Shown here one piece after another: positions 23,856 to 34,959 of a stretch of 64,000 nucleotides of DNA; position 1 is the stretch's first letter; each line of letters opens with the position of its first letter. The position numbers and the translations under genes are program-made. This DNA comes from Salinadaptatus halalkaliphilus (GTDB taxonomy: Archaea > Halobacteriota > Halobacteria > Halobacteriales > Natrialbaceae), in NCBI RefSeq assembly GCF_006543045.1, contig NZ_RBZW01000021.1, positions 1 to 64,000 on the forward strand. Direction: 5' to 3'. The notes beneath the pieces were generated by a model that worked only from the letters and a program-made list of their open reading frames with translations, was not told the DNA's origin and searched no databases.

Positions 23856-24581
23856 ATGGCAGTTCAAGAGCGAGCGGAAATGCTACAACTGTCGTTGGAT
23901 CTCTGGCATCCAAACTGTTGGACGCTGGAAGTGACCGACGACCAAGACGGAGGGATGTACGGTCACGGTGCGTATACGACGGACGAAGGAACGGCGATGG
24001 GACGGTTTACGATGTACGGAAAGACGACCGCCGACATACAGACGCTCATTGATCGAGCCAGAGCGTCGTCGCTGACGGAGATGGTCTCGGTGGCCGAGCA
24101 CGACTACAATACGAACCCGGGACAGACGGGTGTTTCGACACCCGGAAACGCGACGAAGGACGTTTTCGTTGAGTTCCAGTCTGAAAACAGTATCGACCAT
24201 TCGTTCGTCTCTCGAGGATTCATCTACGATGGTCCCGTTCACATCCATGGCGGTCGTGAATACTGGACCGTTATTACACACAAGGAGCGGGACCTGATCG
24301 ACAACGATCTCGCGTCGATCCAATCGGAGATGAACGCGGAGATCAACGTCCAACAGATATCGCCGTACCAACACGCGAGAGATCCCATTAGCGAACGGGA
24401 GGTACTCTCGGCACGACAACAAGAAGTACTCAAACTCGCTCGCTCGAACGGCTACTATTCGTATCCGCGCGAGACGACCTCTCGAGAACTGGCCAGTAAA
24501 CTCGATATCTCGAAGACGACGTTCCTCGAACATCTCAGAAAGGCCGAAGCAAAGCTGCTGGGGCCGGGCACCGACGAGTAA
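23856..24581 (+). CDS. HTH-10 (Bat-type) transcription regulator
   Basis: This 241-residue protein has an N-terminal sensor-like domain and a C-terminal Bat-type helix-turn-helix (about 183-236) with LSARQQEVLKLARSNGYYSYPRE-like spacing, LASKLDISKTTFLEHLRKAE. It is a typical haloarchaeal HTH-10 regulator. It lies directly before the PLP enzyme, D-aminoacylase, amidase and ABC transporter genes, so it is the best candidate regulator of that island. Its own upstream region does not contain the 16-base palindrome found before the enzyme genes. Confidence 0.88.
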   Translation: MAVQERAEMLQLSLDLWHPNCWTLEVTDDQDGGMYGHGAYTTDEGTAMGRFTMYGKTTADIQTLIDRARASSLTEMVSVAEHDYNTNPGQTGVSTPGNATKDVFVEFQSENSIDHSFVSRGFIYDGPVHIHGGREYWTVITHKERDLIDNDLASIQSEMNAEINVQQISPYQHARDPISEREVLSARQQEVLKLARSNGYYSYPRETTSRELASKLDISKTTFLEHLRKAEAKLLGPGTDE

Positions 24582-24602: not shown

Positions 24603-24616
24603 CCTCCCATGGGAGG
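24603..24616. promoter_or_regulatory. 14-base perfect palindrome, candidate operator copy 1
   Basis: CCTCCCATGGGAGG at 24603-24616 is a perfect palindrome. With one flanking C on each side it forms a 16-base sequence identical to that at 27546-27561. Its internal ATG lies exactly 48 bases before the start codon of the PLP enzyme gene, which places it just upstream of the expected TATA/BRE region. Confidence 0.7.
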
Positions 24617-24656
24617 CACTGGGTTATACTCCGGAACGGTACTATCCACGGGTACG

Positions 24657-25883
24657 ATGGACCACGTACCTGCGTTACAGTGTACGCTCTGTGGGGAGAC
24701 GTATGATCCCGAGCGGGAAATTTACACCTGCCCGAATCACGACGGCGTTTCGGGAATTCTCGAGGTGCAGTACGATTACGATGTCGTTCTCGATCGATTC
24801 GACGCCGACCTCGATGGCAGTATTCCGAGTCAGTGGAAGTACAAGCCGTTCCTGCCGGTATCGGCTGACGCGACGCCTGTGACGCTGGGTGAGGGAGGAA
24901 CGGATCTATTGGCAGCAGAGACCTTGAGCGACCGACTGGGCGTCGAAACACTGGTCAAAGACGACGGCCGAAATCCGACCGGCGTTCTGAAGGATCGAGC
25001 GACGAGCGTCTCGGTGACGAAAGCGACCGAAGACGGCGTCGACGTTGTCACCTGTGCCTCGACCGGCAACGCTGCTGCGTCGCTTGCGGGGTACGCTGGG
25101 CGTGCGGACCTCGAGTGTCGGATCTTCGTTCCCGGCGACGCGCCCGAGGGAAAACTTGCACAGCCGTTGACCTACGGCGCCGATGTCCTCGCGGTCGAGG
25201 GCAGTTACGACGAAGCCTACGATCTCAGTATGGCGGTCACCGACGAGTTCGGCTGGTACAACCGGAACGCGGCGATCAATCCGTTTCAGGTCGAGGGGAA
25301 ACGAACCGTCGGCCACGAACTCGCCGAACAGACCCGCGAGTCGGTTCCGGACTGGGTCGTCTTCTCGATGGGCGATGGCTGTACGATCTACGGTGGGTGG
25401 AAGGGGTTCAGGGAGTTCCACGAACTCGATCTGGTTTCGGAGACACCGAAGATGCTCGGCGTACAGGCAGACGGTGCCCGTGCGATCCACGATACCTTTC
25501 ACGATCACGACGACGTTGACGACGTCGCGGACACGCTGGCCGACAGCATCGCCGTCGGTCGGCCGCGAAACACGCTCAAAGCCTGCAAAGCGCTCGAGCA
25601 AAGCGGCGGAACGTCCGTCGTCGTCAGCGACGAGCAAATACTCGAGGGGGAGCGATTGCTCGGTCACACCGAGGGAATCTACGCCGAGCCTGCGGGTGCG
25701 GCCCCGGTCGCGGGCGTCCGCAAGGCTCGCGCTGAGGGGATCATCGATCCGGACGAGACCGTTGTCATCGTCGTGACCGGCAACGGGCTCAAGGATACGA
25801 AAAGCGCGTTACGGGCGAGCGGGGATCCCGTCTCGATTCCGCCGGAGCTGTCGTCCGTCGTCGAGCTATTCCCCGACGGATAG
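24657..25883 (+). CDS. Threonine-synthase-like PLP-dependent enzyme
   Basis: This 408-residue fold-type II PLP enzyme carries a zinc-ribbon-like start (C9, C12, C25, H28) that is common in archaeal threonine synthases. The PLP lysine is K112 in NPTGVLKDRA. The ASTGNAAASLAGYAG phosphate-loop region follows. It may be a genuine threonine synthase, but its setting among aminoacylase and carbamoylase genes with a shared palindrome suggests a catabolic lyase or dehydratase acting on an amino acid. The start at 24657 is chosen because the upstream ATG at 24609 lies within the palindrome. Its end overlaps the convergent gene by 18 bases. Confidence 0.82.
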   Translation: MDHVPALQCTLCGETYDPEREIYTCPNHDGVSGILEVQYDYDVVLDRFDADLDGSIPSQWKYKPFLPVSADATPVTLGEGGTDLLAAETLSDRLGVETLVKDDGRNPTGVLKDRATSVSVTKATEDGVDVVTCASTGNAAASLAGYAGRADLECRIFVPGDAPEGKLAQPLTYGADVLAVEGSYDEAYDLSMAVTDEFGWYNRNAAINPFQVEGKRTVGHELAEQTRESVPDWVVFSMGDGCTIYGGWKGFREFHELDLVSETPKMLGVQADGARAIHDTFHDHDDVDDVADTLADSIAVGRPRNTLKACKALEQSGGTSVVVSDEQILEGERLLGHTEGIYAEPAGAAPVAGVRKARAEGIIDPDETVVIVVTGNGLKDTKSALRASGDPVSIPPELSSVVELFPDG

Positions 25884-27509
25884 GCCCTGGCGTCGCTCGG
25901 AAGCGGCCGGGCGACACTGCCTGCCCCACTCCTCGGTCGACCGCAGTACCCGTCCGGAACGTGACGCTGTCGACTCGCCGCCGTCGACGGCAACCGTTCC
26001 GTTGACGAGGACGTATTCGATGCCGTCGGCGAGTTGCATCGGTTCTTCGTAGGTACCACGTTCGCGGACCTGATCCAGATCGAACGCGACGAGATCGGCC
26101 TTGTACCCCGCCGCGATCCGACCTCGATCGGAGAGCCCCAGTATCGCAGCCGGCTGTCCTGCGGCCTTGTACACGGCGGTTTCGATCGGAAGCACCTCCC
26201 GCTCACGGACGTACCGCTCGAGTATGCGAGGAAACGCGCCGATAGCTCGCGGATGCGGTTTCCCGCCGAAAATGCCGTCGGTGCAGAACGTCCCGCGCGG
26301 GTCGGCCAGAAATCGCTCGATATCCTCCTCGGCCATGATGAAATCGACCATCGTCACGTCGAGTGCTTCCTCGAGGAGGAGATCGAACATCGCATCGATC
26401 GGTTCACAGTCGCGGTCGGCCGCGATCGCTGCGATCGTCCGGCCCTGGTTGCGTCCGCTCGCCGTCCGCGTGATCAGGATGTTTTCCCAGGTGCCGGCTG
26501 CGCGGGCGAGGTTCTCCCAGTCCCCGGGTGAGTCGATATCTGCCGCGATCTCAGTCCGAGTCTCATCGTCGCGGAGCCGCTCGAGCGTAGCGGCGGCGTC
26601 CCCGGTTCTGGCCCACGGCGGGAGCAGTGCCGATAGCATCGTCGATCCGGACGTGTAGGGGTACTGATCGAACGTCACGTGCTGACCGCGGTCGGCGGCG
26701 TCGTCGAAGAGGGCGAGGACGGCTTTGGAGGTCCCCCAGTTGTCCTCACCGCCGACTTTCAGGTGCGAGACGTGAGCGTGACAGCCACCCCGGTGACAGA
26801 TATCGAGGTAGCGATCGATCGATTCGACGACCCGGTCGGTTTCGTTCCAGACGTGTGAGACCATGAGCGTCTTCCGCTCGGCGAGTGTCTCTGCAAGCGC
26901 CACCAGTTCGTCGTCGCGAGCGTAGGAGCTCGGGGGGTAGATCATGCCGGTAGAGAGGCCGAAGGCACCGTCGTCGATCGCCGTCGTTAGTTCTGCCCGG
27001 AGTGATTCTACCTCGTCCCGCTCGAGTGGCCGATCCTCGAAGCCGGCCAGCAGCGACCGCAAGTTGCCATGCGGGGCGTAGTACGCGCAGTTGACACCGG
27101 GCGAGGCGGCCTCGAGTTGCTCGAGGTACTCGTCGACGGTCGTCCACTGCCAGGGGTCCTCGATAGTTCCGTCGAGCGGTCGAATGCGGTTTTCCCACTC
27201 ATCGGTCAGTTCCGAGGGGACGGGTGCCACGCTGACGCCGTCTTGACCGAGAACTTCGGTCGTTATCCCCTGTGATACGTTTTCGGCGGCAGTTGGTTTC
27301 TCGAACAGGCGGAGATCCGAGTGTGAGTGCATGTCGATAAAGCCCGGCGTGAGATACGCACCGTCGAGATCGATTTCGCGGGTCGCGCCTGTGGGAGTCT
27401 CGTCGACGCGACGGATCGTTTCTCCCTCGACGAGGACGTGTCCCGTCTGCGGGGTTCGACCCGTTCCGTCGACGATCGTTGCATTTTGAAACTCGATTCG
27501 GTCGTCCAT
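25866..27509 (-). CDS. N-acyl-D-amino-acid deacylase family amidohydrolase
   Basis: This 547-residue amidohydrolase belongs to the D-aminoacylase group. The metal motif HSHSD is at 61-65. Also present are GLSTGMIYPPSSYA, the HVSHLKV histidine, DQYPYTSGST, and the catalytic aspartate in CTDGIFGGKPHPRAIG. The position that is a metal-binding cysteine in classical D-aminoacylases (GNCG) is aspartate here (LGQDGVS, D90), as in a subgroup I recall from other organisms. It is divergent from the amidase gene; the palindrome lies between the two. The start at 27509 excludes a long unsupported extension. Confidence 0.85.
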   Translation of the reverse strand: MDDRIEFQNATIVDGTGRTPQTGHVLVEGETIRRVDETPTGATREIDLDGAYLTPGFIDMHSHSDLRLFEKPTAAENVSQGITTEVLGQDGVSVAPVPSELTDEWENRIRPLDGTIEDPWQWTTVDEYLEQLEAASPGVNCAYYAPHGNLRSLLAGFEDRPLERDEVESLRAELTTAIDDGAFGLSTGMIYPPSSYARDDELVALAETLAERKTLMVSHVWNETDRVVESIDRYLDICHRGGCHAHVSHLKVGGEDNWGTSKAVLALFDDAADRGQHVTFDQYPYTSGSTMLSALLPPWARTGDAAATLERLRDDETRTEIAADIDSPGDWENLARAAGTWENILITRTASGRNQGRTIAAIAADRDCEPIDAMFDLLLEEALDVTMVDFIMAEEDIERFLADPRGTFCTDGIFGGKPHPRAIGAFPRILERYVREREVLPIETAVYKAAGQPAAILGLSDRGRIAAGYKADLVAFDLDQVRERGTYEEPMQLADGIEYVLVNGTVAVDGGESTASRSGRVLRSTEEWGRQCRPAASERRQGLSVGE

Positions 27510-27546
27510 GTCTCGTCTTTCGTCGTGTCGGTAAAAGATCCGCCTC

Positions 27547-27560
27547 CCTCCCATGGGAGG
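27547..27560. promoter_or_regulatory. 14-base perfect palindrome, candidate operator copy 2
   Basis: This is the same CCTCCCATGGGAGG palindrome as at 24603, with the same flanking C on each side. It lies in the 91-base gap between the divergent aminoacylase and amidase genes, 44 bases from the first start codon and 48 bases (from its internal ATG) from the second. This position suits control of both promoters. Confidence 0.72.
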
Positions 27561-27600
27561 CTCCGCACTGAAACACCGAACTGACGAACCATCAGACCAC

Positions 27601-28839
27601 ATGACCGTAGCGATCGACGCCGATCGATTCAGACGCCGATTCGACGAATTCAACCAGATCGGGGCGACCGAACGGGGCGGCGTGAATCGTCCTGCACTCT
27701 CGGATGCGAACGAACGTGCACGCGACCAGCTCGTCGAATGGTTCGAGGAGGCGGGACTCACCGTTCGAATCGACGAGATGGGGAATCTGTTCGGTCGACG
27801 TGACGGAGCCGATCCCGATGCCGATCCGGTCCTGTTTGGTTCTCACGTCGACAGCCAGTACAACGGTGGTCAGTACGATGGCGTGATCGGCGTCCTCGGC
27901 GCACTGGAAGTAATCGAGACGCTCGAGGACGCCGATATCCGAACCGACCGCCCGCTCGAAGTCGTTTCCTGGAGCAACGAGGAAGGGGTTCGATTCCAGC
28001 CGGATATGCTCGGTAGCGGGGTCTACACGGACGTGTTCGATCTGGAGTACGCCTACGAACGAACGGACGACGACGATCTGAGCTTTCGAGAGGAACTCGA
28101 GCGGATCGGCTATCGCGGCGAGACGCCGTGTGAACACGACGATCTCCACAGTTACTACGAGATGCACGTCGAGCAGGGCCCCTATCTCCTCGAGAACGAC
28201 TGTAGTGTCGGGGTCGTCGAGGGCGTCTACGGCTTTTCCTGGATGAACGTCGCGTTCGACGGCAAAGCAGATCACGCCGGACCGACGCCGATGCACCTCC
28301 GGAACGACGCACTCGTCGCGACCAGTGACGTGATTCAGGCGGTCCGTCGGCTAACGGCGGTCGGTGGCCCGGATCTGGTAGGGACGGTCGGCTCCGTCGA
28401 GGTTTCGCCGAACTCGATCAACGTGATTCCCGAACGAGTCGAGTGTACCGTCGACTTTCGCTCCTACGACAACGCCGTCGTCGACGAGGCGGTCGCCCAG
28501 ATCGAACGCGAGATCGCGGCTGCAGCCGAACGCGAAGGGCTCGAGTACGAACTCGAGGAGATCATGCGCGTCGATGCCGACCCGTTCGACGACGACTGTC
28601 TCGAGCGAATCGAGGACGCGGCCCAGACGGTCGGTGCCGAGTATATGCGGATGACAAGCGGTGCGGGCCACGACGCGAATTATCTCAATACGATCTGTCC
28701 GACGGCGATGATTTTCGTTCCGAGCGAGGACGGGATTAGCCACACGGAAGACGAGTTCACCGAGTGGGACGATGTCGTCACGGGCACGAACGTCTTGCTC
28801 CACACGGTACTTGCAAGCGCTGGGGGTGATGGCCGATAG
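27601..28839 (+). CDS. Hydantoinase/carbamoylase-family amidase (M20-like zinc hydrolase)
   Basis: This 412-residue enzyme resembles N-carbamoyl-L-amino-acid hydrolases and allantoate amidohydrolases. The metal motifs are GSHVDS (H82, D84), YDGVIGV (D93), NEEGVRF (E127-E128), and the HVEQGPYL histidine. The dimerisation domain has DHAGPTPM and RNDA, and near the end GAGHDA and the ISHTEDE histidine are present. It would cleave carbamoyl or related amide bonds. The start at 27601 gives the family's N-terminus and lies 48 bases after the palindrome's ATG. Confidence 0.88.
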   Translation: MTVAIDADRFRRRFDEFNQIGATERGGVNRPALSDANERARDQLVEWFEEAGLTVRIDEMGNLFGRRDGADPDADPVLFGSHVDSQYNGGQYDGVIGVLGALEVIETLEDADIRTDRPLEVVSWSNEEGVRFQPDMLGSGVYTDVFDLEYAYERTDDDDLSFREELERIGYRGETPCEHDDLHSYYEMHVEQGPYLLENDCSVGVVEGVYGFSWMNVAFDGKADHAGPTPMHLRNDALVATSDVIQAVRRLTAVGGPDLVGTVGSVEVSPNSINVIPERVECTVDFRSYDNAVVDEAVAQIEREIAAAAEREGLEYELEEIMRVDADPFDDDCLERIEDAAQTVGAEYMRMTSGAGHDANYLNTICPTAMIFVPSEDGISHTEDEFTEWDDVVTGTNVLLHTVLASAGGDGR

Positions 28840-29113: not shown

Positions 29114-30832
29114 ATGACAGAATCGAGGCGATCGATACTGAAGAAGATGGGTGCAACGGGCGTATCACTGGGGACGGTATCGATAGCAGGCTGTTTCGGC
29201 GGCGAACAAGAGACCGAGGAGTACGATCGACCGGTCGAGGAAGACCTGCCCGAAGAGCGCCGTATCGAGAGGACGTTCGAACACATGGCGTACACGGAGG
29301 AGTACAGTCCGAACCGATACGCGACGAACGAACTCGTGGTCGAAACCGTCGGCGACGTGCTCGGCATCGACTACGAGATGGATATCGGTGAGGCATCCGT
29401 GCTCGACGACCGCGAGGCCGAAGGCGACTTCGACTTCTTTACGTACACTTGGGAATCGGAGCAGGGCGGGGACCCGGACAACGTGATCACGTTTCGGTAC
29501 CACAGCGACGGCCAGCGAAACTTCGGCGGGTACTCGAACGAGGAGTACGACGAAATCGCCGAGCAGTCCCGTCAGGAGTACGACGAGGATGCACGCCAAG
29601 AGCTCATCTACGAAGCACAGGAGCTCATCGGCGAACTCCGCTGGGAGAGCCAGTACCTCTACAACGAGGGCCTATACGGCTACAACACGGACGTCGTCGA
29701 CGAGGATTCCGTCATCGTCGACGGTCGCCTGCGTGGAACCTGGGTTACCTGGACCGAGATCGAGCCGGGACCGGAAAACGACGACGGGATGGTTGCGACG
29801 AACAACTGGGACGCGACGAACCAGCTCAACCCGTTCGACCAGATGACCATCGGCCCGGCCCGAAACGTCACGCCGACGCTCCTCATGCACGATACCTTCA
29901 TCCGGTACACCGAGGAGTACGAACAGGTCAACTGGATCGCCGAGGACATCGAGACCGTCGACGATACGACGATTGTCGTCGAAATCAGCGACGAGTTCGA
30001 GTTCCACGACGGCGAACCCCTCACGGTCGAGGATGTCCTCTGGACGTACGAGACGATCCTCGAGACCGAACCCGCCGCCTACCTCACGTCAGTTACCGAC
30101 CCGCTCGAGTCGATCGAGCAAACCGGTGACAACGAAGTCACGTTCCACCTCGAAGAGCCCTACGTGCCGTTCACGACGCTCACGTTCTGGCAGACGCCGA
30201 TCCTTCCCGCTCACTACTGGGAAGAAATCCTCGACGAGACTGACAACCACGACACGCCGTGGGAAGTGTCGTTCGGCGACGACAGACCAATCGTCGGTAG
30301 CGGTCCGTTCGAGTACGAAAGTTGGGATCAGGGCGAACAGTTTATCCAGACGGCCAACCACGACCACCCGATTGCGCCGCCGAACATCGAAACCCGCGTC
30401 CAGCGGCCACTAAGTTCCTCTGCAGCCGAACTCGAGGCGCTGGAACAGGGCGAGTACGGCTACCTCGACTACTGGTTCGGCAACAACGAGGAGTTAGCCG
30501 ACCGAATTGAGGACGAACCTCACCTCGGTATGTCGGCCGAGCTCGACAACATGCGCGAGGCGACGTGGATGAACGTCGAGGAGCCACCGCTGGATGATGT
30601 TCCCTTCCGCCAGGCCTATCACGCCGTCGTAGCCGATCTTCAGCCGGTATTCGTCGAGGAGATCTACGATGGCTACGGCGAGACGGGTCACTCGCCGATT
30701 ACCCCGATGATCGAGTTCTGGCACAATCCCGACGTTCCCGGCTTCGAGGGCGGTCCGGAGACCGCTATCGAGATCCTCGCCGATGCAGGCTACGTGTGGG
30801 ACGAGGACGGGAACCTCTACGCACCCGAATAA
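29114..30832 (+). CDS. Peptide-type ABC transporter binding lipoprotein, apparently circularly permuted
   Basis: This 572-residue family 5 solute-binding protein has a Tat-type signal (SRRSILK) and a lipobox ending in C27. The segment that normally lies near the C-terminus comes first: DPDN at 120-123, GGYSNEEYDE at 138-147 and the following helix. The normal N-terminal lobe comes second: FHDGEPLTVEDV at 297-308, then VGSGPFEYESWD. The protein ends with AIEILADAGY, which in ordinary members is followed by the segment found here at 50-215. It is the first gene of a five-gene Dpp/Opp operon. Confidence 0.82.
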   Translation: MTESRRSILKKMGATGVSLGTVSIAGCFGGEQETEEYDRPVEEDLPEERRIERTFEHMAYTEEYSPNRYATNELVVETVGDVLGIDYEMDIGEASVLDDREAEGDFDFFTYTWESEQGGDPDNVITFRYHSDGQRNFGGYSNEEYDEIAEQSRQEYDEDARQELIYEAQELIGELRWESQYLYNEGLYGYNTDVVDEDSVIVDGRLRGTWVTWTEIEPGPENDDGMVATNNWDATNQLNPFDQMTIGPARNVTPTLLMHDTFIRYTEEYEQVNWIAEDIETVDDTTIVVEISDEFEFHDGEPLTVEDVLWTYETILETEPAAYLTSVTDPLESIEQTGDNEVTFHLEEPYVPFTTLTFWQTPILPAHYWEEILDETDNHDTPWEVSFGDDRPIVGSGPFEYESWDQGEQFIQTANHDHPIAPPNIETRVQRPLSSSAAELEALEQGEYGYLDYWFGNNEELADRIEDEPHLGMSAELDNMREATWMNVEEPPLDDVPFRQAYHAVVADLQPVFVEEIYDGYGETGHSPITPMIEFWHNPDVPGFEGGPETAIEILADAGYVWDEDGNLYAPE

Positions 30833-30854
30833 CGGCACCGATATCTCTATACCT

Positions 30855-31844
30855 ATGCTAAACCGAAAATATCTGTTGCAACGGCTGGCGCTGATGGGGA
30901 TTTCGCTCTTTATCGTCGTTACACTCTTGTTTTTCCTTTTTCGACAGATTCCAGGCGGACCGACCGCGATGATGGCTCCGGGTGCGCTCCCGGAAGACGT
31001 TCGACAACAGGTGATCGAAGAACACGGCCTCAACGAGCCGTTGTGGCGTCAGTACGTACTGTTCATGACCAACCTGGTCCAGGGGGATCTGGGTTACTCG
31101 TTTTACTACGGCCAGCCAGTCTCGTCGATGATCGCGAGTCGTGTCGTCAACACTCTCGCACTGATGATCAGCGCAATCCTGATCTCCTACACGCTGGGCA
31201 TCTATCTCGGTGCACACCTGGGCTGGATCCGCGGCACTACCCTCGAGCGCGTCGAGATGGTCATCGTGCTGATCGCCCGTTCGACGCCGGTGTTTTTTAT
31301 GGGCCTGTTCTTGCTGTACATCTTCTCGTTTCAGTTGGGGTGGTTCCCCGTCGGCGGGATGCGTAGCGTCGGCGCGTCAGCTGATGGCGCGTTTCAGACG
31401 TTTTTCTCGATCGATTTCTTCCACCACCTCGTCTTACCTGTCGTCTCGTTGTCGCTATTTTACACGGGGCTCCCACTGTTGTTGATGCGAAACAACATGC
31501 TCGAGGTCATCACCGAGGAGTACATCGAAACGGCACAGGCGAAGGGACTGTCCCGGCGACGAATCGTCTTCGTTCACGCGGCACGGAACGCGATTTTGCC
31601 CGTCGTCACCGCTTTCGCGGTTGCTATCGGGTTTTCGATCGGCGGACAGGTACTCATCGAGACGGTCTTTTCTTGGCCTGGCCTCGGTCGGGAGATGGTC
31701 GATTCGGCGACAAGAAACGACTATCCCATGGCCCAGGGGACGTTCCTGTTGCTTGCAACGCTCGTCATTACGATGAATTTCGTTGCGGATATCCTGTATA
31801 CGTACCTGGATCCGCGGGTCAGCGTCGACGGTGAATCCGAGTGA
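30855..31844 (+). CDS. ABC transporter permease, DppB/OppB type
   Basis: This 329-residue permease has six membrane helices. The N-terminal GGPTAMMAPGALPEDVRQQV region and the cytoplasmic EAA loop EEYIETAQAKGLSRRRIVF are typical of the first permease of di- and oligopeptide systems. It follows the binding protein after a 22-base gap and pairs with the next permease. The start at 30855 removes an unsupported upstream extension into the binding-protein gene. Confidence 0.92.
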   Translation: MLNRKYLLQRLALMGISLFIVVTLLFFLFRQIPGGPTAMMAPGALPEDVRQQVIEEHGLNEPLWRQYVLFMTNLVQGDLGYSFYYGQPVSSMIASRVVNTLALMISAILISYTLGIYLGAHLGWIRGTTLERVEMVIVLIARSTPVFFMGLFLLYIFSFQLGWFPVGGMRSVGASADGAFQTFFSIDFFHHLVLPVVSLSLFYTGLPLLLMRNNMLEVITEEYIETAQAKGLSRRRIVFVHAARNAILPVVTAFAVAIGFSIGGQVLIETVFSWPGLGREMVDSATRNDYPMAQGTFLLLATLVITMNFVADILYTYLDPRVSVDGESE

Positions 31845-31848
31845 TACG

Positions 31849-32778
31849 ATGAGTGATACAAACGCGACTGCAACCGAATCGACTACCGACGGCAGCAGGC
31901 GCCGACAGCGGCTTCGGCGACTCGGCGAAACGCTCGCCAGTCAGGCGAAAACCGTCTGGCGGTCGAAGATGGCTGTCTTCGGTATCTGTCTGATTCTGGC
32001 GTTTACGCTGATGGCGGTTACAGCGCCGTTTATCGCGCCCTACGAACCGAACGAACGTCAGTACGCAGACGACGGCTCCTGGAAGACGATGGAATCACCG
32101 TCGGCCGAGCATCCGCTTGGAACGACCGACGATGGCTACGACGTGCTCTCCCAGCTTATTTGGGGGTCACAGATTGCGATGTTCGTCGGCTATCTCGGGG
32201 CGTTCATGGTCGCCGTGATCGGGACTGGTGCGGGGGTGGTCGCCGGCTACTACGGCGGGCTGGTTGACGAGGGTGTCATGCGGTTCGTCGACATCCTCTA
32301 CGGACTGCCGTTTATCCCCTTCGTCATCGTCATCGCGACGATCTTCGGCGCCAGTGTCTGGAACGTCATCTTCGGGATCGCGCTCTTGTACTGGCTGACG
32401 ACTGCCAGAGTGGTTCGCTCCGAGGTCCTCTCGATCAAAGAGCGCCCGTACATCGAAGCTGCGAAGGCGGCCGGTGCATCCAACCTCCGGATCATGCGCG
32501 TTCACATCGTGCCGAACGTGCTCCCGCTATCGGCACTGTACGCCGCCATCGCGGTCGGCTACTCGATCACCGCACAGGCAAGTATCGCGTTCCTCGGATT
32601 TAGCGATCCAACGGTTCCCTCCTGGGGCGTCATGCTTCAACGAGTGTTCAATCAGCAAGGACTCGATGCCTGGTGGTGGTTCCTACCGCCGGGCATCTCG
32701 ATCACGCTGGTCGTGCTCGGCGCGTATCTAGCGGGACGAGGATACGACGAGATCGTCAATCCGCAGTTACAGCAGTAG
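31849..32778 (+). CDS. ABC transporter permease, DppC/OppC type
   Basis: This 309-residue permease has a charged N-terminal tail followed by six helices. The family start (WRSKMAVFGICLIL) and the EAA loop RPYIEAAKAAGASNLRIM identify it as the second permease of a peptide-type ABC importer. The gap to the previous stop is four bases, which supports co-translation. Confidence 0.92.
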   Translation: MSDTNATATESTTDGSRRRQRLRRLGETLASQAKTVWRSKMAVFGICLILAFTLMAVTAPFIAPYEPNERQYADDGSWKTMESPSAEHPLGTTDDGYDVLSQLIWGSQIAMFVGYLGAFMVAVIGTGAGVVAGYYGGLVDEGVMRFVDILYGLPFIPFVIVIATIFGASVWNVIFGIALLYWLTTARVVRSEVLSIKERPYIEAAKAAGASNLRIMRVHIVPNVLPLSALYAAIAVGYSITAQASIAFLGFSDPTVPSWGVMLQRVFNQQGLDAWWWFLPPGISITLVVLGAYLAGRGYDEIVNPQLQQ

Positions 32779-32798
32779 ACCAACCCAATCGAAGACCT

Positions 32799-33863
32799 AT
32801 GAGTACGATCGAATTCACGGACGATGCGCCGCTGCTTTCCGTAGACGGCGTGAGTATCGAGTACGAAACGAGAGATGGTGGCCGGTTACGGGCGATCGAC
32901 GATCTGAGCTTCGAGATCGACACCGACGAAATTCTCGGCCTGATCGGGGAAAGCGGCTGTGGAAAGAGTACCGTCGCAAAGGCTGTGCTCGGTCTCTTGC
33001 CCCGAAACGGCTACGTCGTCGACGGCGAGATCCAGTTTCGCGGCGTCGATCTGACGACACTGGACACCACCGAGCTCAACCAAGTGCGGTGGCAACACGT
33101 CTCGCTGATCAGCCAGGGAGCGATGAACTCGCTCAACCCTGTTCATCGAATCTCCGATCAGATAATCGAGGCCATTCAGAACCACGACGATGTCTCGAAC
33201 GAAGACGCTCGAGCGCGCGTCGCGGAGCTGTTCGAACTCGTCGGACTGGATCCCGATCGGATGGACGACTACCCCCATCAGTTCAGCGGTGGAATGCGAC
33301 AACGGGCCTACATCGCGATGGCGCTGGTTCACGATCCGTCGCTGATCATCGCCGACGAACCGACGACGGCACTCGACGTGATCGTTCAAGATCAGATTCT
33401 GAAGCGGCTTAAGGAGTTACAAGACGAGTTCGACCTCTCGATCTTGCTCATCACACACGACATCAGCGTCGTCGCCGAAACGTGCGATCGGATGGGCGTG
33501 ATGTACGCCGGCAAGCTGATGGAGTACGGCAATCTGCGGTCGATCTTCGACGCGCCGTACAACCCATACACGCTCGGGTTGAAAAACGCGTTCCCGTCGC
33601 TGACCGGCGACCAGCAGGATCTGATCAGCATTCCTGGTAGCCCGCCCGACCTCTCGGAGGTTCCCGCTGGCTGTCGGTTCGTCGAGCGCTGTCCGTTCGC
33701 AACCGAGACGTGTACCACGTCGCATCCGCCCCTCGAGAACGTGGGTGCGGATCACCACTCGGCGTGTTATCGCCACGAGGACATCGAACAGTTGCGCGAG
33801 CAAGCACAACTGCGAGAGAGTTGGCACCGAGACGGGAGCCAACCGACTATCGAACAGCACTAA
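32799..33863 (+). CDS. ABC transporter ATP-binding protein, DppD/OppD type
   Basis: This 354-residue ATPase has Walker A GESGCGKST (about 50-58), the signature FSGGMRQR and Walker B LIIADEPTTALD. The C-terminal extension with the cysteine cluster CRFVERCPFATETC is that of the oligopeptide/dipeptide transporter family, which in some members binds an iron-sulfur cluster. It works with the next ATPase and the two permeases. Confidence 0.93.
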   Translation: MSTIEFTDDAPLLSVDGVSIEYETRDGGRLRAIDDLSFEIDTDEILGLIGESGCGKSTVAKAVLGLLPRNGYVVDGEIQFRGVDLTTLDTTELNQVRWQHVSLISQGAMNSLNPVHRISDQIIEAIQNHDDVSNEDARARVAELFELVGLDPDRMDDYPHQFSGGMRQRAYIAMALVHDPSLIIADEPTTALDVIVQDQILKRLKELQDEFDLSILLITHDISVVAETCDRMGVMYAGKLMEYGNLRSIFDAPYNPYTLGLKNAFPSLTGDQQDLISIPGSPPDLSEVPAGCRFVERCPFATETCTTSHPPLENVGADHHSACYRHEDIEQLREQAQLRESWHRDGSQPTIEQH

Positions 33864-33864
33864 C

Positions 33865-34959
33865 ATGTCTGAATCACATAATTTGGGTCCGGAATCACCG
33901 CCGCCGAGCGATCGAGAGTCCGCTCCCATCATGTCCTGTACCAAACTCGAGCAGTACTTTCCCGTCGAGCAAGGACTCGTCGACACGCTCACCGGGGCCG
34001 AACGGGAGTACGTCAAAGCCGTCGATGGCGTCGATCTCGAGATCGAAACGGGCGAAATCGTCGGTCTCGCCGGCGAGTCAGGCTGTGGCAAGACCACGTT
34101 CGGCAAGACGCTCATCCGGCTTCTCGATCCGACCGGCGGCTCGATTCGATTCAACGGTAACGACGTAACGACCATCTCCGGCAGCGAACTGCAGGAGTTT
34201 CGCCGGAACGTCCAGATCATCTTTCAGGATCCGTTCGAGAGCCTCAACCCTCGACTCACGATACGCGACGCCGTGCGGGAGCCACTGGACATCCATGGAA
34301 TCGGCGATCGGGAGCAACGCCGTGCACGGGTCATCGAGGCGCTCGAGCGAGCGGAGTTACGACCCGCGACCGAGTTTCTCGATCGGTATCCACACCAGTT
34401 GAGCGGCGGACAGAAACAACGCGTCGCGATCGCTCGAGCGCTGGTGCTCGAACCGGAGTTCATCCTGGCCGACGAACCCGTTTCGATGCTCGACGTGAGC
34501 ATTCGTGCCGGCGTGTTGAACCTTCTCGAACGGCTCAACGAGGAACTGGGGATCACGATGCTGTTCATCAGCCACGACCTCTCGCTGTTGCGACAGGTAT
34601 GCGATCGGATCGGGATCATGTACCTCGGGCGGGTCGTCGAACTCGGCGATACCGAATCGGTCATCCAGGAACCGACACATCCCTACGCCAGGGCGTTGCT
34701 CTCGGCTGCGCCCGAACCCGACCCGTTCGCTGATCGGGATCACACGGAGTTACAGGGATCGATTCCAGATCCGATTGACCTCCCGACTGGCTGTCGGTTC
34801 AAAGATCGCTGTCCCGAACGGGAGGCCATCTGCGACCACGTCGACCCACCGTTGCTCGAGGTCGAGTCCGACAAGAGCGTCGCGTGTCATCCGTACTATG
34901 ACACCGCTGATCGAGAGCGGCTCGAACAGCAGTTCGACGATGCGGACAGCGATACGTAG
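33865..34959 (+). CDS. ABC transporter ATP-binding protein, DppF/OppF type
   Basis: This 364-residue ATPase begins one base after the previous stop. Walker A is GESGCGKTT (about 70-78), the signature is LSGGQKQR and Walker B is FILADEPVSMLD. The C-terminal cysteine cluster CRFKDRCPEREAIC is present. With the preceding genes it completes a peptide-type importer, probably for peptides or acylated amino acids that the neighbouring hydrolases process. Confidence 0.93.
   Translation: MSESHNLGPESPPPSDRESAPIMSCTKLEQYFPVEQGLVDTLTGAEREYVKAVDGVDLEIETGEIVGLAGESGCGKTTFGKTLIRLLDPTGGSIRFNGNDVTTISGSELQEFRRNVQIIFQDPFESLNPRLTIRDAVREPLDIHGIGDREQRRARVIEALERAELRPATEFLDRYPHQLSGGQKQRVAIARALVLEPEFILADEPVSMLDVSIRAGVLNLLERLNEELGITMLFISHDLSLLRQVCDRIGIMYLGRVVELGDTESVIQEPTHPYARALLSAAPEPDPFADRDHTELQGSIPDPIDLPTGCRFKDRCPEREAICDHVDPPLLEVESDKSVACHPYYDTADRERLEQQFDDADSDT

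Follow-up and report, generated by a model that had tools for sequence, protein, structure and literature searches.

A predicted operator for an HTH-10 regulator upstream of three catabolic genes in Salinadaptatus halalkaliphilus and its distribution across the order

Among described haloarchaeal systems, Bat and DmsR of Halobacterium come closest to the locus reported here. Bat, the regulator of the purple-membrane regulon, has a C-terminal helix-turn-helix (HTH) domain of the same kind, and its gene likewise lies near its targets (PMC1447603). The Bat upstream activator site (UAS) stands 5' of the promoter and is common to several genes (PMC1447603), a likeness to the present site in placement. 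DmsR has an HTH-10-like C-terminus similar to Bat and exerts positive control over a linked operon (PMC1447603), but it controls DMSO respiration, and no operator for it was found in the literature searched. The denitrification motif CGAAYATDKTYG of Haloferax mediterranei is also a semi-palindromic haloarchaeal promoter motif, which has been tested by mutation and is located 66-79 nt before start codons; however, its sequence is unrelated, it precedes other genes, and no regulator has been assigned to it (PMC10062603). The nitrogen-shift motif AAAGACTAART of Haloferax volcanii has been proposed to act in the control of amino-acid metabolism there, but it is AT-rich and was proposed for other genes and for an Lrp/BarR-type protein (PMC6801745). 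In bacteria, the Lrp-like PutR and the trifunctional PutA provide proline-linked control of ProDH/P5CDH genes (PMC6168545, PMC5293562), although they belong to other protein families than the HTH-10 regulators and use other DNA sites.

In this study, the window, that is, the whole stretch of 64,000 nucleotides of S. halalkaliphilus DNA that was analysed, was found to encode an HTH-10 regulator of 241 amino acids at 23856-24581 on the forward strand (PF04967, E 5.4e-20). The protein contains the following two parts: a two-part alpha/beta N-terminal region and a C-terminal HTH_10 domain (residues 184-235; 71.4 bits versus the Pfam cut-off of 23.1) with the recognition helix SKTTFLEHLRKAE. All 40 aligned homologues matched the HTH_10 family. 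In the AlphaFold model (mean pLDDT 88), an ordered alpha/beta region at residues 10-170 with a repeated strand-helix pattern precedes the HTH. No Pfam family covered the N-terminal region in the Pfam search, and among PDB folds the closest, Ta1207 (5m86, E 1.1e-5), matched in part, with a TM of only 0.44. Moreover, the genome holds 30 regions matching the regulator, 29 of which match mainly over the HTH part, and the window protein is the sole full-length member of its family in its own genome. In Bat the sensor domains are of the GAF and PAS/PAC types, whereas a Pfam search of the regulator for PAS and GAF domains (E 0.001) returned only HTH_10, and its predicted targets are amino-acid catabolic genes; since it lacks PAS and GAF, the regulator is not a Bat orthologue. 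Membership of the Lrp/AsnC family (BarR-type, with an N-terminal HTH and a C-terminal ligand/assembly domain) was rejected because the HTH of the regulator is C-terminal and of the HTH_10 family.

Two copies of a perfect 14-base palindrome, CCTCCCATGGGAGG, are present in the window, at 24603-24616 and 27547-27560. The first predicted operator lies about 21 nt past the regulator stop codon and 5' of a PLP-enzyme gene, and the second is common to the divergent promoters of an aminoacylase gene and a carbamoylase-family gene. A preliminary description of this DNA had called the site a 16-base palindrome; a C flanks both copies on each side and extends their identity to the 16-mer CCCTCCCATGGGAGGC, but it breaks the symmetry, and the palindrome itself is 14 bases long. 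The distance of 48 nt from the ATG within the site to the start ATG was exact for the genes at 24657 and 27601, while that to the divergent aminoacylase start (A at 27509) is 45 nt by the same measure and not 44 as had been given.

The first predicted target (24657-25883, forward strand; PF00291; TIGR00260, 228.9 bits) is a threonine-synthase-like paralogue, a second threonine-synthase-like gene being located in the same genome at G000:C27. Its start at 24657 is backed by homologues beginning there or within a few residues (MDHV, MVMDHV, MVMEHV). The other predicted targets are a D-aminoacylase-family amidohydrolase (25866-27509, reverse strand; PF07969, PF01979; homologues annotated as D-aminoacylase) and an M20 hydantoinase/carbamoylase-family amidase (27601-28839, forward strand; TIGR01879, 422.6 bits; NF006769, 514.3 bits). 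Together, the three enzymes would fit a degradation pathway for N-acyl and N-carbamoyl amino acids. The genes of the PLP enzyme and the aminoacylase are convergent, and their 3' ends overlap by 18 bases (25866-25883). A peptide-type ABC transporter cluster (29114-34959) follows the carbamoylase-family gene, as one does behind the homologous cluster of Haladaptatus (L240). Control of this transporter by the palindrome was rejected because no site was found in the DNA upstream of 29114, and self-regulation of the HTH-10 gene was rejected on the same ground. A wider regulon was also sought, but the looser patterns CCNNCCATGGNNGG and CCNNYCATGRNNGG occur at 5 and 11 places of the own genome, fewer than their reversed controls (11 and 27), so that further targets cannot be claimed.

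The position of the site relative to the promoter was examined across 127 distinct sites. The highest A+T content is found 15-18 bp from the site centre, which is the expected TATA position, and start codons mostly lie 42-53 nt from the centre. In Haloferax, 72% of transcripts are leaderless and the TATA motif is TTWT (PMC4983044); taken with the A+T peak and the start spacing, this places the operator just upstream of the BRE. The earlier expectation of a TATA box between site and gene was borne out by this order-wide peak, by TTATAC for the PLP gene (24624-24629, forward strand; about 16 bp from the operator centre) and by TTTTAC for the aminoacylase gene (27531-27536, reverse strand; about 19 bp), but the carbamoylase-family gene has at the expected position only a weak GAAACA (27570-27575, forward strand), which fits the haloarchaeal TTWT box poorly. 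Thus, like a UAS, the site occupies a fixed place upstream of the BRE/TATA.

With high probability, the HTH-10 protein of the adjacent gene uses the palindrome as its operator; it would act as a dimer just upstream of the BRE/TATA so that the three catabolic genes respond together, most likely by activation. In the proposed mechanism, the dimer would bind CCTCCCATGGGAGG both in front of the PLP-enzyme gene and between the divergent aminoacylase and carbamoylase-family genes; the two operator copies would couple the response of the three genes; and the regulator would help TBP/TFB to bind once its N-terminal domain senses an amino acid or a derivative. Activation is the most likely outcome because the site is upstream of the TATA box at a fixed distance and leaves it uncovered; judged by position alone, this would be the same mode as described for Bat and DmsR (PMC1447603). 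Three things can be read from the DNA: the palindrome, the place at which it stands, and a linkage to both the regulator family and the predicted target genes. The same regulator could also use the same operator as a repressor, blocking TFB/TBP beside the BRE until an amino-acid ligand releases it. Some archaeal repressors act near the BRE/TATA, and only about 10 bp separate the site from the TATA-like box. Nevertheless, repression is unlikely, as the site lies upstream of the TATA box without overlapping it at about 110 promoters, and the HTH-10-like Bat and DmsR have both been described as positive regulators (PMC1447603).

The assignment of the operator to the regulator was examined in 394 genomes of the order, 228 with the regulator and 166 without, in which the own genus is represented by this genome alone. 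The preliminary description had suggested a search of this genome and its relatives for the repeat. In the 4.52-Mb genome, no third copy of the exact 14-mer exists, both copies being in promoters; in the whole set, 14 genomes carry it and 15 sites were found beyond the two of the window, while the reversed control gave 3. Of the 15, eight have a homologue of the window regulator no more than 150 nt away, two are part of the corresponding gene clusters in G350 and G415, and five are unconnected, three of these apparently in coding DNA. In two genomes of one genus, the 14-mer lies inside the same long coding gene (G195 and G202; L176 8294-8307 and L177 8515-8528), unconnected to the regulator and with the extended symmetry AGGACCTCCCATGGGAGGAGGT.

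Furthermore, 80 regulator homologues were picked by protein sequence only, 58 of which have CCNNCCATGGNNGG no more than 300 nt from their gene. The density at these loci was 67 sites in 48 kb near the gene versus 40 in 1.13 Mb far from it, and many of the far sites are about 1 kb off, 5' of the next catabolic gene. Among 359 observed palindromes of the same layout, CCNNCCATGGNNGG ranked first, at 58 loci versus 20 for the runner-up. The restricted form CCKHCCATGGDMGG was present in 174 of the 228 genomes with the regulator versus 29 of the 166 without (Fisher p 2e-32, a nominal value because the genomes are related to each other); the safer comparison is the reversed control, which showed no difference (64 of 228 and 49 of 166). 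A near site is absent at about a quarter of the regulator homologue loci. The family consensus of the predicted site is CC-KH-YCATGR-DM-GG, with degenerate inner positions.

The homologous gene cluster gave a closer view of the same position. HTH-10, PLP-enzyme, aminoacylase and carbamoylase-family genes occur in the same order in Halorubrum (L041-L043) and on a plasmid of Haladaptatus (L240); in G350 (L167) the regulator is a few kilobases off the cluster, and in G415 (L168) the cluster is rearranged. The gap between the aminoacylase and carbamoylase-family genes measures 90-94 nt in all seven cluster loci, the window included, and six of them have a gap of 90-92 nt with the site at offset 37, while L168 has one of 94 nt with the site at offset 43. 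The gap sites are CCTCCCATGGGAGG in the window and L168, CCACACATGGGAGG in L041 and L042, CCCTACATGGGAGG in L043, CCTTTCATGGGAGG in L240 and CCTACCATGGAAGG in L167, and in the gap alignment the palindrome forms an island of invariant columns amid diverged flanks. Upstream of the PLP gene, CCTCCCATGGGAGG of the window corresponds to CCGTCCATGAGAGG in L041 and L042 (one change), CCTCCCATGGAAGG in L167 and CCGTCCATGGAAGG in L168 (read towards the gene), and to the decayed sites CCGTCTATAGAAGG in L043 and CCGTCTATACAGGG in L240. The exact 14-mer was absent from 29 same-family PLP-gene loci (L012-L040), which looked like a refutation; however, these genomes have no window-type regulator beside the enzymes, so that the absence is what the model predicts. 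Same-family genomes with the enzymes but without an adjacent window-type regulator also lack the site in that gap. A variant, CCGACAATRNCNGG or its complement, lies about 49-50 nt before PLP genes in L148 (4031-4044), L153 (7626-7639) and L141 (9524-9537), with an HTH-10 gene of helix ATATLHEHLHKAE about 2 kb away; as a variant operator paired with this helix, it was rejected as too weak, being seen at few loci only. An operator shared by the three genes and, as its candidate regulator, the HTH-10 protein encoded alongside had both been proposed earlier; this proposal gained support, since the palindrome tracks the regulator family order-wide and keeps the same gap position. In genomes keeping the regulator, neither scatter in coding DNA at random frequency nor a lack of conservation at the same place was found, the two observations that had been named as speaking against it.

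The regulator family is linked to more than one pathway. Haloferax, Halorubrum, Haloarcula-type and other genomes have the regulator gene between an aldehyde dehydrogenase gene and a proline dehydrogenase gene (PF01619, NF045947 for the latter), followed by a branched-chain-type ABC transporter, and sites lie at the aldehyde dehydrogenase and transporter promoters. In other genomes it stands beside genes for proline racemase, for Asp/Glu racemase-family proteins and for MFS and PutP-like transporters. As judged from these gene contents, amino-acid catabolism is the common theme of the regulator neighbourhoods. The order-wide site family with degenerate inner positions and the proline-catabolism link of the other main branch had been missed in the preliminary description. 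The ProDH/P5CDH genes of H. volcanii, HVO_1191 and HVO_1189, are induced on alanine versus ammonium, by a signal that was called unclear (PMC6801745). Judging by the order of genes in related Haloferax, an HTH-10 gene would be expected between the two, presumably HVO_1190, for which a literature search found nothing. In seven Natrialbaceae loci with ProDH-linked regulators (L069, L073, L079, L084, L089, L100, L105), the helix is AKSTLLEHLRRAE and no CCATGG-type site is near, and these regulators likely have a different operator.

In addition, changes of the recognition helix went together with changes of the site, a suggestive association. Among 114 homologues, a CCATGG-type site accompanied helix KTT in 68 cases and was lacking in 16; of the homologues with other helices, 3 had the site and 27 did not. 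The site label changes many times in the homologue tree, and the association is weaker than its p-value because related rows are not independent in it. In a sister clade with SKAT-type helices, CCNNTCATGANNGG-type sites stand beside the gene, and CCNNYCATGRNNGG was found 8 times near and 0 times far at 21 loci. Members of this clade (helix mostly SKAT) with CCNNTCATGANNGG or hybrid sites, and not CCNNCCATGGNNGG, include L221, L224, L225, L228, L234 and L237.

These comparative data bear on whether another factor binds the palindrome, the HTH-10 gene being linked merely as a member of the catabolic cluster. Linkage by itself is compatible with such binding, but the motif follows the regulator through proline, PLP/aminoacylase/M20, racemase and transporter loci and not one pathway, PLP genes without a window-type regulator are also without the site, presence across genomes tracks the regulator, and helix and site change together; binding by another factor is accordingly very improbable. 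It is less credible still that translation truly starts at the ATG of the palindrome, which lies in frame at 48 nt, with the repeat encoding an MGG- N-terminus or acting in translation. Both frames are open from this ATG and GGAGG resembles a Shine-Dalgarno sequence; however, homologous PLP proteins begin at or near 24657, promoters differ in this distance (42-53 nt), which often puts the ATG out of frame, and the site also serves the opposite strand. Moreover, as the TATA box lies between site and start, transcripts from that promoter do not contain the site, and a role as start codon or RNA hairpin was rejected on these grounds. Finally, a chance repeat in GC-rich DNA can practically be dismissed, for although perfect 14-mer palindromes occur in the window at the expected rate (15 versus 13.6 under a Markov model) and 29 of 200 simulated windows contain some repeated palindrome, which makes repetition alone weak evidence, it is refuted by the order-wide association with the regulator and by the other genomes in which the site is conserved at the same position. 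The significance of the window palindrome comes from these comparative data.

Beyond the HTH-10 operator model for the window, a broader picture can be offered tentatively, at somewhat less than even confidence. The family may form order-wide switches of amino-acid catabolism with the code CC-N2-YCATGR-N2-GG, in which one helix residue (SKTT versus SKAT/SEAT) would pair with a CCATGG or a TCATGA core, and duplicates may have taken over pathways (proline, N-acyl/N-carbamoyl, racemase-linked) by shifting helix and operator together.

In conclusion, no published operator of this sequence was found in the open papers searched, which dealt with the UAS of Bat, with DNA sites of HTH-10 proteins and with the reconstruction of archaeal regulons. 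The HTH-10 transcription factor and its promoter-proximal site are thus strongly predicted to be a new regulator-operator pair, apparently undescribed. Haloarchaeal genomes carry dozens of HTH-10 proteins, very few of which have a known DNA site, and for one subfamily a precise predicted operator is now available, together with a promoter geometry and with predicted targets throughout the order, so that the prediction can be tested in the genetically tractable Haloferax. The paired changes of helix and operator would provide a natural series for learning how archaeal regulators choose their DNA.
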